Shown piece by piece: positions 16,710-32,487 of a stretch of DNA of 34,793 nt (position 1 is its first letter; the number at the start of each line of letters is the position of its first letter). Source of the stretch: an uncultured Ignavibacteria bacterium. GTDB taxonomy: Bacteria > Bacteroidota > Ignavibacteria > SZUA-365. Below the pieces are notes generated by a model. The model did not search any database and was not told where the DNA came from. It saw only the letters and a program-made list of their open reading frames with translations. The DNA lies in NCBI GenBank assembly GCA_913061095.1, contig CAJXVM010000034.1, positions 1 through 34,793 on the forward strand, written 5' to 3'. Position numbers and translations under genes: made by a program.

Positions 16710-17010
16710 CGACCACACCCTTCCGGGTGTGGCTACCGCCATCCATGTATGTCTTGCGCTAGCCACACGCGTGAGCGTGCATGACGCACCGTGCGGATGG
16801 CGCTAACCACACGCGTGAGCGTGTGGGACGAGGCGGACGCTCCCGACCCCACCCTTCCGGGTGTGGCTACCGCCATCCATGTACGTCATGCGCTAGCCAC
16901 ACGCGTGAGCGTGTGGGACGAGGCGGACGCTCCCGACCACACCCTTACGGGTGTGGCTACCGCCATCCATGTACGTCATGCGCTAACCACACGCGTGAGC
17001 GTGTGGTCGC
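16710..17010. repeat. REP/BIME-like array, 90-bp period
   Basis: Alternating palindromes of two types: CCACACGC-GTGA-GCGTGTGG and, on the other strand, GTAG followed by CCACACCC-GGAA-GGGTGTGG (one copy has CGTA instead). Two complete 90-bp units (16801-16890, 16891-16980) are nearly identical, with an older degenerate unit before and a partial one after. The palindromes carry GTAG, CTAG or CTAA at their outer edge. The array fills the gap between the divergent osmC-like and rho genes and ends 130 bp before the rho start. The arrangement matches bacterial interspersed mosaic elements. Not CRISPR: no unique spacers. Confidence 0.85.
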
Positions 17011-19464: not shown

Positions 19465-19655
19465 ATAACCCCACCCTCACGGGTGGGGTTACCGGATGAC
19501 GTGGCGGTATGCGGAAGCCACCCGCGTGAGCGTGTGGATGCGGGGGCAATCCCACCCTCACGGGTGGGGTTACCGGATGACGTGGCGGTATGCGGAAGCC
19601 ACACGCGTGAGCGTGTGGTTGCGGGGGCGACCCCCACCCTCACGGGTGGGGTTAC
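19465..19655. repeat. REP/BIME-like array, 81-82-bp period
   Basis: Three CCCCACCC-TCAC-GGGTGGGG palindromes (starting 19469, 19550, 19632; the second has one changed base) alternate with two CCACRCGC-GTGA-GCGTGTGG palindromes (about 19516 and 19598). In the minus direction each of the first kind starts with GTAA. The head of the last one (19655-19652) supplies the TAA stop of the beta-propeller gene. Same family as the arrays at 16710 and 25322. Confidence 0.85.
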
Positions 19656-23838: not shown

Positions 23839-23862
23839 GTAACCCCACGCGTGAGCGTGGGG
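23839..23862. repeat. Single REP-like hairpin upstream of the sugar transferase
   Basis: GTAA followed by CCCCACGC-GTGA-GCGTGGGG, oriented on the + strand. It lies 31 bp before the sugar-transferase start and 10 bp beyond the hicA remnant end. Same family as the arrays elsewhere. In the transferase mRNA it would form a strong leader hairpin. Confidence 0.8.
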
Positions 23863-25321: not shown

Positions 25322-25543
25322 TAACCACACGCGTGAGCGTGTGGATGCGGGGGAGGCGCACGCCACCCCCACCCTCACGGGTGGGGTTACCCGATGTCAC
25401 ATACGGATGGTGGTAGCCACACGCGTGAGCGTGTGGATGCGTGAGCCCGACCCGATGTCACATACGGATGGCGCTAACCACACGCGTGAGCGTGTGGATG
25501 CGGGGGAGGCGCACGCCACCCCCACCCTCACGGGTGGGGCTAC
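25322..25543. repeat. REP/BIME-like array between methyltransferase and GT2
   Basis: Alternating CCACACGC-GTGA-GCGTGTGG palindromes (about 25325, 25415, 25478) and CCCCACCC-TCAC-GGGTGGGG palindromes (about 25368, 25521). Heads are CTAA, GTAG and, on the minus strand, GTAA/GTAG. The last head (25543-25540) supplies the TAG stop of the glycosyltransferase. Units flanking the middle share the sequence CGATGTCACATACGGATGG. The array lies between two converging genes. Confidence 0.85.
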
Positions 25544-28128: not shown

Positions 28129-30063
28129 CTACCGCGTGTTCAATATGGATATCACCAGTCCCGCCACACCGGCGAGGGAGCCCGCGATGGCCGCGACGAC
28201 GGCGAGAAGCTCTGTCGTGGATGCCACCGGCACGAGCGGCTCATGCGGCACGTAAATCATGTCGCCCGGCTCGATCACCGCTTCGTCGGGCTTCACCCAG
28301 GCGCGCGTGTTGGATTTGATCACCGCCGCGCGATCCTCGTCGGCGGACTCGCCGATCCCGCCCGCCTGCTCAATGTACCATTCGAAATCCTTGCCCTCGC
28401 TCCACGGCACGAAGCCGTGCGTATTCACCTGTCCGTACACGTACACCGTGCGCGTGTTGCGCGGCACCAGCAGCACATCGCCGTCCTCGAGCGGCACATC
28501 CGCCGCCGCCTGCTTTGCGACGAACAGCCGGTGGAAATCCACCGCCACCTGTCCCTCGCGCAGCCGCGCGTTCATCGACCAGTACAGCGTGTCTTCGTTC
28601 ACGAGCGGACTCTTCTCAAACGTGCGGTCCTTCTCCCGCGAGGGATCGGGCGCCACGCCCTCGATGCCGATCTGCCGGCGGTACAGCTCCGAAAGTCCGG
28701 GCCAGGCCTGGGACGTGAATCCCCCCGCCATCTTCACCAGCTCGCTGAGGCGCGTCTCGCCGGGCACGATGGGATAGGCGCCGGGCTGCTCTACCTCGCC
28801 ATCCACCACCGCCGTGCCGAGATTCCCGCTCTGGCGCCGGGCGTACACGATCAGGCGGTCGCCGGGCTCGAGCTCCATGTCATTGACGCCCTCGCCGCCG
28901 AGCGTTGAGACGGGGATGTCGATGGATTCCTTGCCCTCCCGCGTCAGCTCCGCGCCGATGACGGTTTTCGTGGGATCGAGGCCGAAGCCCATGCGCAGGA
29001 GATCCGACAGCCGGTCGCCGCGCATGTATTCGAACACGCCCGGACGCTGCACGGCGCCCAGCACCGCGATCGTCGGCGTGGAGACGTCGCGCTGCGGCAC
29101 GATGATGATGTCGCCCTCGCGGAGGAGGGGATCGTAGCGTCCATCGCGCGTCGCCTCGTACATCGGGATATCCGCGCGGCTGGTGCTGCCGTCGGCGTGC
29201 TGAATGACGATGCGGCGCAGCGCGCGGCGCTCGGTTTCCCAGGATCCGAAATAGCGCGCGCCGAGGCGCTGGCGGTAATTCGGATTCGACACGCCGTCGC
29301 CCTGCTGCATGAGCTGCAGTTTCGTGGTGGATTCCGGCTCCTGCTCCACCGCGGCCATCTGCAGCGCCATGGAGACGGGGGTGCCGGCAGTCACGCGCAG
29401 GAGTCCCGGCGTCTTCACCTCGCCGCGGATTTTCACGAGAATCGGACGCGGCTGCAGCAGTGTCAGCGTGCCTTCGAAGGCGGGATATTTGCGCTTGAGC
29501 ACATTCGTCACCTCGCGGCGCGCCTCGGCGAGCGTCTTGCCGCCGACCGGCACCGCGCCCACTTTCGGGATGACCAGTGATCCGTCGGCGCTCACCGGCA
29601 GCACGGCCTCGACATTCACGGGCATGGTGATCACGAGGGACATCACGTCGTTCGGACCGCAGACATACAGCTCCGGCTCCACCGTGCGCGCGACGGGAGC
29701 CGTCTCGCGCCCCAGCACCGACGCAGCCGCCTCGCCGCTCTTGCCTTCCTTCTGCATCAGGGGATTGAAGGAGTCGAGCTGTGCGTGGAGGCAAACAGGG
29801 AGAACGAGGAGGGCAAGGAGGATGGTAACCCCACGCGTCAGCGTGTGTATGCGGGCATCATCGGGTGCAGTAACCCCACGCGTCAGCGTGTGTATGCGGG
29901 CATGATCGGGTGCAGTAACCCCACGCGTCAGCGTGTGTATGCGGGCATCATCGGGTGCAGTAACCCCACGCGTCAGCGTGGGGATCACGCGTGAATCCCC
30001 ACCACTCTTCTTGTTGATACACTCGGAGTGAATTGACTCTTCCATCCTGTACAAATAACTCAT
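28129..30063 (-). CDS. Polysaccharide export protein (Wza-like, SLBB domains) with repeat-encoded N-terminus
   Basis: A 644-residue export protein. After an export core (YVCGPNDVMSLVITMP, ADGSLVIPKVGAVPV) come several SLBB domains (KIRGEVKTPGLLRV, VLGAVQRPGVFEY, VVDGEVEQPGAYPI, YVYGQVNTHGFVPW) and a final membrane helix (VVAAIAGSLAGVAGLVISIL). It should form the envelope channel for the polymer. The signal-peptide core ILLALLVLPVCLHA occupies residues 81-94, far from the start: residues 27-80 are encoded by a 45-bp palindromic array (TRGVTAPDDARIHTL repeated). No ATG, GTG or TTG lies between the array and the core, so translation must start at 30063 (overlapping the wecB stop by ATGA) or at 30045. 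Whether this long leader still directs export is uncertain. Confidence 0.85.
   Translation of the reverse strand: MSYLYRMEESIHSECINKKSGGDSRVIPTLTRGVTAPDDARIHTLTRGVTAPDHARIHTLTRGVTAPDDARIHTLTRGVTILLALLVLPVCLHAQLDSFNPLMQKEGKSGEAAASVLGRETAPVARTVEPELYVCGPNDVMSLVITMPVNVEAVLPVSADGSLVIPKVGAVPVGGKTLAEARREVTNVLKRKYPAFEGTLTLLQPRPILVKIRGEVKTPGLLRVTAGTPVSMALQMAAVEQEPESTTKLQLMQQGDGVSNPNYRQRLGARYFGSWETERRALRRIVIQHADGSTSRADIPMYEATRDGRYDPLLREGDIIIVPQRDVSTPTIAVLGAVQRPGVFEYMRGDRLSDLLRMGFGLDPTKTVIGAELTREGKESIDIPVSTLGGEGVNDMELEPGDRLIVYARRQSGNLGTAVVDGEVEQPGAYPIVPGETRLSELVKMAGGFTSQAWPGLSELYRRQIGIEGVAPDPSREKDRTFEKSPLVNEDTLYWSMNARLREGQVAVDFHRLFVAKQAAADVPLEDGDVLLVPRNTRTVYVYGQVNTHGFVPWSEGKDFEWYIEQAGGIGESADEDRAAVIKSNTRAWVKPDEAVIEPGDMIYVPHEPLVPVASTTELLAVVAAIAGSLAGVAGLVISILNTR
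29825..29983. repeat. 45-bp REP-like tandem array inside the export gene
   Basis: Units start at 29825, 29870, 29915 and 29960: three full copies and one partial, period exactly 45 bp. Each carries GTAA and CCCCACGC-GTCA-GCGTG; the last makes a perfect palindrome ending in GTGGGG. Since 45 is a multiple of three and the units contain no stop in the export frame, copy-number change leaves the gene open. The loop is GTCA rather than the GTGA seen in the other arrays. Confidence 0.9.
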
Positions 30064-31163
30064 ACCTGAAATTTTTCCAGTAAAATGGCAACGATGCGCT
30101 CAGCGGCGCGGCCGTCCCACAATTCAGGAATATTACCTTCTTTTGCGCTGCCGTTCAATGCGGCGCGCGATTTTTCCACTGCCAGCGGGATGTCAAGCCC
30201 AACCACTTCGTTGGTGCCGATCTCGGCGGTGATCGGACGCTCGGTGTTCTCGCGCAGCGTGATGCAGGGCACGCCGAGCCAGGTGGACTCCTCCTGGATG
30301 CCGCCCGAGTCGGTGAGGATCAGCGCGGCGTTGTCCATGAGCTTCAGGAAATCCAGGTAGCCGATCGGGTCGCAGAGCGTGAGCGAGGATATCGCGTCGA
30401 AGCGCTCGGCCAGGCCGAACTCCGCGATGCGCGCCCGCGTGCGCGGGTGCACCGGGAAAATGAAGCGCGTGTCGCTCTGGATGGATTCAAAGAGGGAGAG
30501 GATTTTCTCGAGGTTCTCCTTCACGTCGACGTTGCTCGGACGATGCAGCGTCACGAGCGTGAAGGCTTTCGGCAGGACGTCGAAGCGCGCGAGCGCATCC
30601 GACAGCGCGGCCTTCTCGCGGTAGTACGCGAGTGAGTCGATCATCACATGTCCCGTGAAGAATACCTTTTCGTCGGGGATGCCTTCGCGGCGCAGGTTGT
30701 CGATGCCGGCCTGTTCGGTGACAAAGAGGTAGTCGGACAGCACATCCGTGACGAGGCGGTTGATCTCCTCGGGCATGTCGCGGTCGAAGCTGCGGAGTCC
30801 GGCCTCCACATGCGCCACGGGGATTTTCAATTTCGACGCCGTCACCGAGCAGGCGAGCGTGGAGTTCACGTCGCCGACCACGATCACCAGGTCCGGCTGC
30901 TCCTCGCGCAGCACCTTCTCGAACTCCACCATCACGCGGGCGGTCTGTTCGGCATGCGAACCCGAGCCCACGCCGAGATAGATATCCGGCTGCGGCAGCT
31001 CCAGGTCCTCGAAAAAAATCTTCGACATTTTCTCGTCGTAATGCTGGCCGGTATGGCAGATCATGTGCCGCACCCGCTCCGCATGTGCGGCGAACGCGCG
31101 ATGCAGGGGAGCGACTTTCATGAAATTCGGCCTCGCGCCGACGACGGAGATGATTTTGAGCAT
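30060..31163 (-). CDS. wecB: UDP-N-acetylglucosamine 2-epimerase (non-hydrolysing)
   Basis: A 367-residue cytoplasmic enzyme that interconverts UDP-GlcNAc and UDP-ManNAc. Family signatures are VVGARPNFMKVAPL (7-20), the GDVNST block with D98, HVEAGLRSFDRDMPEE with E120 and E133, TLHRPSNVD, PVHPRTR, and LTDSGGIQEES, which binds the UDP. The length is normal. The ATG at 31163 follows AGGAAAT and lies one base after the stop of the dehydrogenase gene; its own TGA overlaps the ATG of the export gene. The tight packing supports one operon. With the adjacent dehydrogenase it could make UDP-ManNAc uronate. Confidence 0.95.
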   Translation of the reverse strand: MLKIISVVGARPNFMKVAPLHRAFAAHAERVRHMICHTGQHYDEKMSKIFFEDLELPQPDIYLGVGSGSHAEQTARVMVEFEKVLREEQPDLVIVVGDVNSTLACSVTASKLKIPVAHVEAGLRSFDRDMPEEINRLVTDVLSDYLFVTEQAGIDNLRREGIPDEKVFFTGHVMIDSLAYYREKAALSDALARFDVLPKAFTLVTLHRPSNVDVKENLEKILSLFESIQSDTRFIFPVHPRTRARIAEFGLAERFDAISSLTLCDPIGYLDFLKLMDNAALILTDSGGIQEESTWLGVPCITLRENTERPITAEIGTNEVVGLDIPLAVEKSRAALNGSAKEGNIPELWDGRAAERIVAILLEKFQV

Positions 31164-31164
31164 A

Positions 31165-32487
31165 TTATTTCCTGCCGTCACCGAGTACCGTCACGTGCTT
31201 CTTCGGACCCTTTACGTCTTTCGTGGCGTTGCGGGTGTCGATGACGACTTTCGCGTGCTTGAGGATCATCTCGTAGTCGTAATCCGAGTGGTCGGTGGTG
31301 ATGACGACGCAGTCCATTTCCTCGAGCAGTTCGGGCGTGAGCTTGCGCGAACGCAGGCGCCGCCCGTTGACGCGCACTTGGGGAACGTACGGGTCGTTGT
31401 AATGCAGGTTGCGGACGTGGTCCTCGAGCAGCAGCTCCATGATGCGCAGGGCGGGAGAATGCCGCGTGTCGTCGACGTCTTTCTTGAACGCCACGCCGAG
31501 CATCAGGATGTTGGCATCCATCACCGAAATAGGCATCATCCCGAGCTGGCGGAAGAGCATGTTCTTCACATAAAACGGCATGCTCTCGTTGGTCTCCGCC
31601 GCGAGGTTGATGAAGTTCGTCTGGAAATCGAACTTGCGCGCGATCCACGAGAGATAATATGGATCGATGAGGATGCAGTGTCCGCCGATGCCCGGACCCG
31701 GATAAAACGGCATGAAGCCGAAGGGCTTGGTCTTGGCGGCCTCGATGACCTCCCACATGTCGATGCCTTCCATGCGGTCGCAGAGCTGCGCCAGCTCGTT
31801 CACCAGCGCGATGTTCACGCTGCGGAAAATGTTCTCCAGCAGCTTCTCCATCTCGGCGATCTTGGGATTCGACACCGGCACGACCGTGGCGATGACCTGC
31901 TCGGTGACGAGCTTCGCGAACTTCGTGCACTTCTTTGTGACGCCGCCGACGACTGTGGGAGTATTCGCGGTGGTCCACGTCTTGTTGCCCGGATCGATGC
32001 GCTCCGGCGAGAAGGCGAGGTAGTAGTCGCGACCCGCCTTCATGCCCGTGCGCTCGAGAATCGGCTGCACGTAATGCTGCGTGGTGCCGGGGAAGGTGGT
32101 GGATTTGAGGATGACGATATGCTCGCGCCGCAGGCCGGGCAGGATGCCCTCGGCCGCGTCGACGATGTAGGAAATGTCGGGATCCTTCGTTTCCGTGAAC
32201 GGCGTGGGCACACAGATGAAGACCACATCCATCTTGCGGATGTTGCGGTAATTCTCCTCGGCGGACAGGAGGCCGTCCTTCACCGCCTTCGCGAGCAGCG
32301 CATCGTCCACGTCATCGATGTAATTCTTCCCCCTGTTGATCGCATCGGTTTTCTTTTTGTCCGTGTCGATGCCGATCGTGCGGAAGCCCGCCGTCGCATA
32401 CTCCACCGCCAGCGGCAGGCCCACATACCCGAGCCCGATCACACCGACCGTGATGTCCTTCGAAGTGATTTTCTGTTCAAGTGTCAT
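31165..32487 (-). CDS. UDP-N-acetylhexosamine 6-dehydrogenase (WecC/WbpA type)
   Basis: A 440-residue NAD-dependent enzyme oxidising C6 of a nucleotide sugar to the acid. The NAD fold begins with GVIGLGYVGLPLA (15-27). K215 and N219 lie in AEMEKLLENIFRSVNIALVN, and the catalytic cysteine C271 in PGIGGHCILIDPYYL. The C-terminal UDP-binding domain includes LMLGVAFKKDVDDTRHSP. The sequence style is closer to UDP-GlcNAc/UDP-ManNAc dehydrogenases than to UDP-glucose dehydrogenase; beside wecB, UDP-ManNAc is a likely substrate, but WbpA-like use of UDP-GlcNAc is also possible. I chose the ATG at 32487, as family members start shortly before the NAD fold; no ribosome site is visible. Confidence 0.93.
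   Translation of the reverse strand: MTLEQKITSKDITVGVIGLGYVGLPLAVEYATAGFRTIGIDTDKKKTDAINRGKNYIDDVDDALLAKAVKDGLLSAEENYRNIRKMDVVFICVPTPFTETKDPDISYIVDAAEGILPGLRREHIVILKSTTFPGTTQHYVQPILERTGMKAGRDYYLAFSPERIDPGNKTWTTANTPTVVGGVTKKCTKFAKLVTEQVIATVVPVSNPKIAEMEKLLENIFRSVNIALVNELAQLCDRMEGIDMWEVIEAAKTKPFGFMPFYPGPGIGGHCILIDPYYLSWIARKFDFQTNFINLAAETNESMPFYVKNMLFRQLGMMPISVMDANILMLGVAFKKDVDDTRHSPALRIMELLLEDHVRNLHYNDPYVPQVRVNGRRLRSRKLTPELLEEMDCVVITTDHSDYDYEMILKHAKVVIDTRNATKDVKGPKKHVTVLGDGRK

Follow-up and report, generated by a model that had tools for sequence, protein, structure and literature searches.

A cluster of REP elements has probably been captured in the leader of a polysaccharide export gene from an uncultured Ignavibacteria bacterium, tolerated in frame, amplified, and translated as a long signal-peptide n-region. 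The gene lies in the window (the whole 34,793-nucleotide stretch of DNA that was analyzed), and its product scores over the cut-off for both PF02563 and PF10531 (Poly_export and SLBB), as in the Polysaccharide export (Wza/OPX) family. A Wzz-like gene is found downstream, and a UDP-sugar dehydrogenase gene lies upstream of the epimerase gene that precedes the export gene. Taken with the export and epimerase genes, these neighbors suggest an exopolysaccharide operon (Table 1).

Tandem Repeats Finder returned positions 29825–29980 as a repeat with a period of 45, 3.5 copies, and 98% matches, and the minus-strand frame 30063–28129 stays open across it; the in-frame, stop-free 45-bp array of 3.5 copies described in the first-pass annotation was thereby confirmed. 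REP cores are located at 29830, 29875, 29920, and 29965, giving four copies by core count. The copies differ at one base, and the unit corresponds to 15 hydrophilic, arginine-containing residues. All of the candidate start codons of the export gene (ATG 30063, TTG 30054, ATG 30045, and GTG 29988) are upstream of the array, and no ATG, GTG, or TTG was found in the export-gene frame between the array and ILLALLVLPV. The earlier claim that the only usable starts precede the array holds for these three codons, but it overlooked TTG 30054, GTG 29988, and an in-frame CTG contained in each array copy, the last of which (29841) is a weak alternative start. ATG 30063 is the favored start because its ATGA overlap with the epimerase stop matches the layout of an insert-free orthologue in a relative (G008); 25 codons separate this ATG from the array. 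A start at GTG 29988 would also keep the array inside the protein.

Read from ATG 30063, the leader would have an 80-residue n-region in which K+R number 11 and D+E number 9; alignment with the orthologues matches both its core and its LHA–Q site. The predicted cleavage pair (Ala-Gln, A94-Q95) is invariant in this alignment, and residues 81–94, originally assigned to the hydrophobic core, are the correct span for core plus cleavage site. The coding signal per codon is 0.2–0.3 in the insert, compared to 0.6–0.9 in the mature export protein; the weak signal is as expected for foreign sequence and equally fits sequence that is untranslated. Judged from the sequence, the export protein probably starts out with an n-region of about 80 residues and loses it along with the rest of the signal peptide; the mature protein, presumably secreted, is probably unaffected.

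Table 1. Features of the export gene, its leader, and related repeats in the window
Feature	Position	Strand	Remarks
Polysaccharide export gene (Poly_export + SLBB)	28129..30063	-	644 aa; first 80 codons hold the REP array; orthologues known
Hydrophobic signal core and predicted cleavage site	29782..29823	-	ILLALLVLPVCLHA, then Q; residues 81-94
REP array, 45-bp unit, 3.5 copies (four palindrome cores)	29825..29980	-	read as IPTLTRGVTAPDDARIHTLTRGVT...
Partial extra palindrome GGGGATTCACGCGTGATCCCC	29981..30001		adjoins the array; holds in-frame GTG 29988
Predicted leader region IPTLTRGVTAPDDAR			would be array-encoded; predicted mature export protein from QLDSFNPL onward
ATGA overlap	30060..30063	-	export-gene start ATG and epimerase stop TGA; same layout in G008
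UDP-N-acetylglucosamine 2-epimerase gene	30060..31181	-	373 aa; upstream of the export gene; stop overlaps the export start
Same-family REP copies	16764..17005		intergenic array, 90-bp spacing
Same-family REP copies	19519..19617		intergenic, 81-bp spacing
Single REP	23839..23862		upstream of a membrane protein gene with its own downstream ATG (contrast case)
Three REP copies	25326..25496		intergenic

The repeat belongs to a family that is dispersed through the genome. The REP CCCCACGCTGACGCGTGGGG is an imperfect palindrome with a stem of 8 and a loop of 4, in keeping with the 20–40-bp stem-loops typical of GTAG-type (RAYT-associated) REPs, and its core CACGCGTNAGCGTG was found at 160 sites in the 4.6-Mb genome, compared to 1 for the reversed control pattern, which bears out the initial description of the repeat as REP-like. 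In the window alone, 14 matches to the core were present where 0.02 were expected. The longer form GTARCCMCACGCGTNAGCGTGKGG was counted at 200 sites (up to 3 mismatches) in 824 kb chosen around REP sites, a sample whose REP density is not the genome average; in ten stretches, 60 real sites compared with 0 for its reversed control. The foot of the stem among 128 REP cores was read as GTAA in 33, GTAG in 20, and GTAT in 14, and the array copies read GTAA. Approximately 89% of the 824 kb was called coding, yet the REP sites that overlap a called gene number at most 22 of 200, and several of these genes are artefacts of calling. The genes called across REPs at L077, L094, and L081 are questionable. 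Across 38 same-strand gene gaps, the REP cluster began a median of 17.5 nt after the upstream stop and lay 97.5 nt before the next start, and a REP was within 60 nt of the upstream stop in 28 of them. REP sites are nearly all intergenic, and the placement in the export leader is indeed as unusual as it had first appeared.

Long tandem clusters occur elsewhere in the genome. A very regular set of seven REP copies with a 72-bp period was seen at L094 5894–6349 (contig C21), and ten head-to-tail REPs with a 36-bp period directly follow a desaturase stop codon at L096 10096–10433 (contig C25). On its other strand, the latter array has an open frame of 140 codons but is apparently noncoding. A period divisible by three was considered as a sign of coding and was ruled out by this intergenic array of ten 36-bp units.

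The array's REP was also found in frame in unrelated proteins. In an E2 acyltransferase (L066 16301–17647), three REPs encoding PTRERGDEEEPKKEEGSAG units lie between the lipoyl and E3-binding domains; because conserved domains flank the linker on both sides, this example shows that the REP can be translated. In signal peptidase I, the N-terminal cytoplasmic tail holds two REPs (DSPTHERGDD ... DSPTRERGDD), and the tail fits a niche behind stop codons because the REPs begin about 20 nt past the stop of the upstream gene. In both of these proteins the element is clearly an in-frame coding one with sequence on either side, and the corresponding status in the export gene rests on the absence of a later ATG, GTG, or TTG. 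A REP stands directly before the signal core of a lipoprotein (IPTLTRG followed by AILLLLVLSAC) and is probably in frame, depending, as in the export gene, on the choice of start. In the lipoprotein leader at L083 4755–5855, a TACTGC-rich repeat HTAYCLLRTASCLLRTA is followed by a REP immediately ahead of the lipobox, and the leader seems to be made of two successive repeat families. Several further candidates were rejected: a match in RpoB (L075 8802) was a chance match to the core pattern within a conserved protein, and at L057, L059, L070, L071, L080, and window position 23839, the downstream genes have their own later start.

Among the relatives displayed, none carried the array's REP in signal peptidase or E2, and other elements were found in the same segments. 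The signal peptidase tail of G004 contains two copies of that genome's own GTAG REP (26 genomic sites), and the E2 linker of G006 and G009 contains a palindrome that was found solely in that gene within the loci examined. Relatives also have other stretches in the E2 linker that are palindromic or of low complexity; G004, for example, has a DDESAR repeat there.

The export gene of the genome analyzed here (G000, a 42-contig assembly) was compared with those of five same-family relatives with a readable 5′ end (G001, G006, G008, G009, and G010). The G008 gene (MKHVLLSLCIVALLLQSAPVAAQ) is free of the insert; it begins within an ATGA shared with the epimerase stop, and the h-region follows three codons later. 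G013 and G014, from another family in the same order, have short leaders (MKYFLTILPL) and likewise lack the insert. Homologues that start just before the core had been named in the first-pass annotation as evidence against its reading, and G008, G013, and G014 are of this kind, but their short leader is the ancestral form and no such ordinary start is left in G000. The G006 and G009 genes share a 90-bp palindromic element in open frame, in one copy and two copies, respectively, with the second G009 copy in another register. This element is dispersed at 12 places in G006 and 22 in G009, and is absent from G001, G008, and G010. In both genomes its end places an in-frame GTG immediately ahead of the core, and the element may supply a start codon rather than being read through. 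At L018 in G009, the second palindromic copy abuts the hydrophobic core and seems to shorten it (CLLLTTLPAFAQ); the export signal peptide of this genome may be weak, and the element's own GTG may serve as its start. The G001 gene contains two different palindromes, and the G010 gene has a perfect 28-bp palindrome, for which two places were counted; all are of low copy number, which falls short of showing them to be REP families. As for later start codons, G010 offers only TTGs within the core. Read-through of the repeat is required only in G000 and G001 because these have no later ATG, GTG, or TTG. Stems of at least 7 bp numbered 8 in the 1,116 nt from epimerase stop to cleavage site and 27 in 25,505 nt elsewhere in the six loci. 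The corresponding densities of 7.2 and 1.1 per kb (p = 8e-5) pool related, nonindependent genomes and are thus only indicative; the single stem in G008 is an ordinary 7-bp match.

These observations point to a probable sequence of events. REP elements would have entered immediately past the stop codon of the epimerase gene and, because that stop overlaps the export start in this compact operon, would have come to lie between the first codons of the export gene and its h-region. Insertions that broke the frame would have been lost, and in-frame ones would stay in weakly constrained n-regions or tails; this insert may have survived because it is in frame and stop-free and because a hydrophilic, arginine-containing peptide is tolerable in an n-region. 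The array would then have grown through tandem duplication of the 45-bp (15-codon) unit. A tolerated insertion is preferred over a switch because the orthologues carry different palindromes or none and because the same REP occurs in unrelated proteins, and repeated tolerated capture fits these data better than a purpose-built switch.

Counted against the capture of a translated array is CTG 29841, since a start there, within the last REP copy, would give a normal-looking signal peptide of conventional form (MTRGVTILLALLVLPVCLHA). Initiation at this codon, or at an ATC at the core, would leave the array untranslated, as a leader separating the epimerase and export genes, an arrangement that would match the overwhelmingly intergenic location of G000 REPs near upstream stops, as well as the possible GTG start at the end of the element in G006 and G009. 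CTG starts are rare. No ATG, GTG, or TTG follows the repeats in G000 or G001, ATG 30063 keeps the ATGA overlap found in G008, and the E2 linker shows that the same REP is translatable, all of which argue for read-through. Although Di Nocera et al. (PMC3733652) warn that many N-terminal REPs are extragenic and appear otherwise through wrong start annotation, a noncanonical start is considered rather unlikely for this gene. Palindromes of different origin are also found ~20–80 nt past the epimerase stop in 5 of the 6 genomes compared, and the bias toward upstream stops extends genome-wide. Both features would be expected if the palindromes served the epimerase, with a hairpin after its stop protecting or processing the operon mRNA at the expense of the export n-region. 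Such a role appears unlikely given that G008 has no strong hairpin at this position and that an insertion preference combined with purging would give the same positional bias. It is similarly improbable that, in this bacterial group, the export-gene signal peptide, the signal peptidase tail, and the E2 linker repeatedly captured lineage-specific palindromes under selection for a useful hairpin, particularly at operon junctions, and paid for it with the translated peptide; were this the case, signal-peptide n-regions would routinely harbor mobile RNA hairpins.

A tunable leader had been suggested in the first-pass annotation; as an adaptive device, the array would alter mRNA structure or the export efficiency of the exopolysaccharide channel through changes in copy number. 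A period divisible by three, near-identical copies indicative of recent amplification, and the presence of palindromes at the export site in several lineages are all compatible with this proposal. However, tuning by mRNA hairpins was not borne out by folding of the 5′ region, which did not exceed shuffled sequence in structure (z −0.81; 25 of the 100 shuffles did equally well), the same REPs occur in unrelated proteins, and G008 and the order-level relatives do without such an insert. A specific regulatory role for the array is unlikely because several kinds of palindrome occupy the site and some relatives have none, and an adaptive tunable leader is very unlikely. An assembly error or a decayed gene can be given hardly any credence. 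Repeats assembled from short reads can be mis-sized and the genome is in 42 contigs, but the copies differ at one base, the frame is open, the mature protein has a strong coding signal together with conserved domains, and palindromes occupy this position, again with the frame open, in relatives that were assembled separately.

The captured array resembles several known systems. GTAG/CGTC-tagged REPs are short dispersed palindromes located mostly just after stops and occasionally in frame within genes; the intragenic ones often come as dimers or groups and are overrepresented at N-termini, and different REPs occupy about the same recB site in two Xanthomonas species (PMC3733652). The elements described here share the dispersal, the preference for sites just after stops, and the occasional in-frame copies, but they probably form a signal-peptide n-region without a later ATG, GTG, or TTG, have other palindromes as counterparts in the same segment in several sister lineages, and have a stem foot that is mostly GTAA, GTAG, or GTAT rather than strictly GTAG. 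Rickettsia palindromic elements (RPEs) are also found in frame within unrelated protein genes, to which they add peptide (PMC10969869). Both kinds are palindromic, in frame, and in unrelated proteins; RPEs are ~150 bp and come from another phylum, and their length sets them apart from a 20–24-bp REP in a 45-bp array. In PARCEL, as here, tandem palindromic DNA is read as protein, often in membrane-targeted proteins (PMC2996958), but its units are 25 amphipathic residues in proteins of unknown function, whereas these are 15 hydrophilic residues in the leader of a known export protein; the array does not contain the tandem 25-residue amphipathic motif that defines PARCEL. Autotransporters have long signal sequences with an extended signal peptide region (PMC2805444). 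An unusually long n-region precedes a Sec-type core in both cases. In autotransporters the extension is a protein motif that is conserved, whereas the extension here is repeat DNA that is not conserved between species, and the export protein gave no match to the Pfam domain for the autotransporter extended signal.

In-frame palindromic elements are therefore already known from RPEs and intragenic REPs, including the Xanthomonas recB case. The new aspects are the placement of REPs where they would form a signal-peptide n-region, with no ordinary start after them, and the occurrence of different palindromes in the same protein segments of sister lineages; the literature search yielded no paper in which REPs form signal peptides and none on Ignavibacteria REPs. 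Tolerated capture would provide a natural route by which selfish noncoding repeats become protein, with the stop/start overlap placing the REP niche inside the next leader, and its recurrence at one site would amount to a natural experiment on the tolerance of n-regions and cytoplasmic tails. The case argues against treating every N-terminal REP as an annotation error.

A Y1 transposase (C16:102271–102615) has REPs of the array's kind on both sides. It scored 67.7 with the IS200/IS605 model (cut-off 55) and 21.8 with the RAYT model (cut-off 80), and because these curated models class the transposase as IS200/IS605 and not RAYT, it is at most a candidate for the enzyme mobilizing the REP; this classification counts against the main reading. 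No palindromes were found near the C5 gene, the sole RAYT over the cut-off. At 277–880 in the window, a gene resembling Y1/REP-associated transposases has partial NF047646 matches at 391–612 and 676–840, and the strong palindromes beside it (42–64, 117–135, and 174–200) are of a different family from the array's REP. A second IS200-like transposase, at L076 9300–10400 (contig C8), has palindromes of a further family (TTCCGGGCTCACGCCCGGAA) on its flanks, which suggests that transposase copies have their own palindromes.
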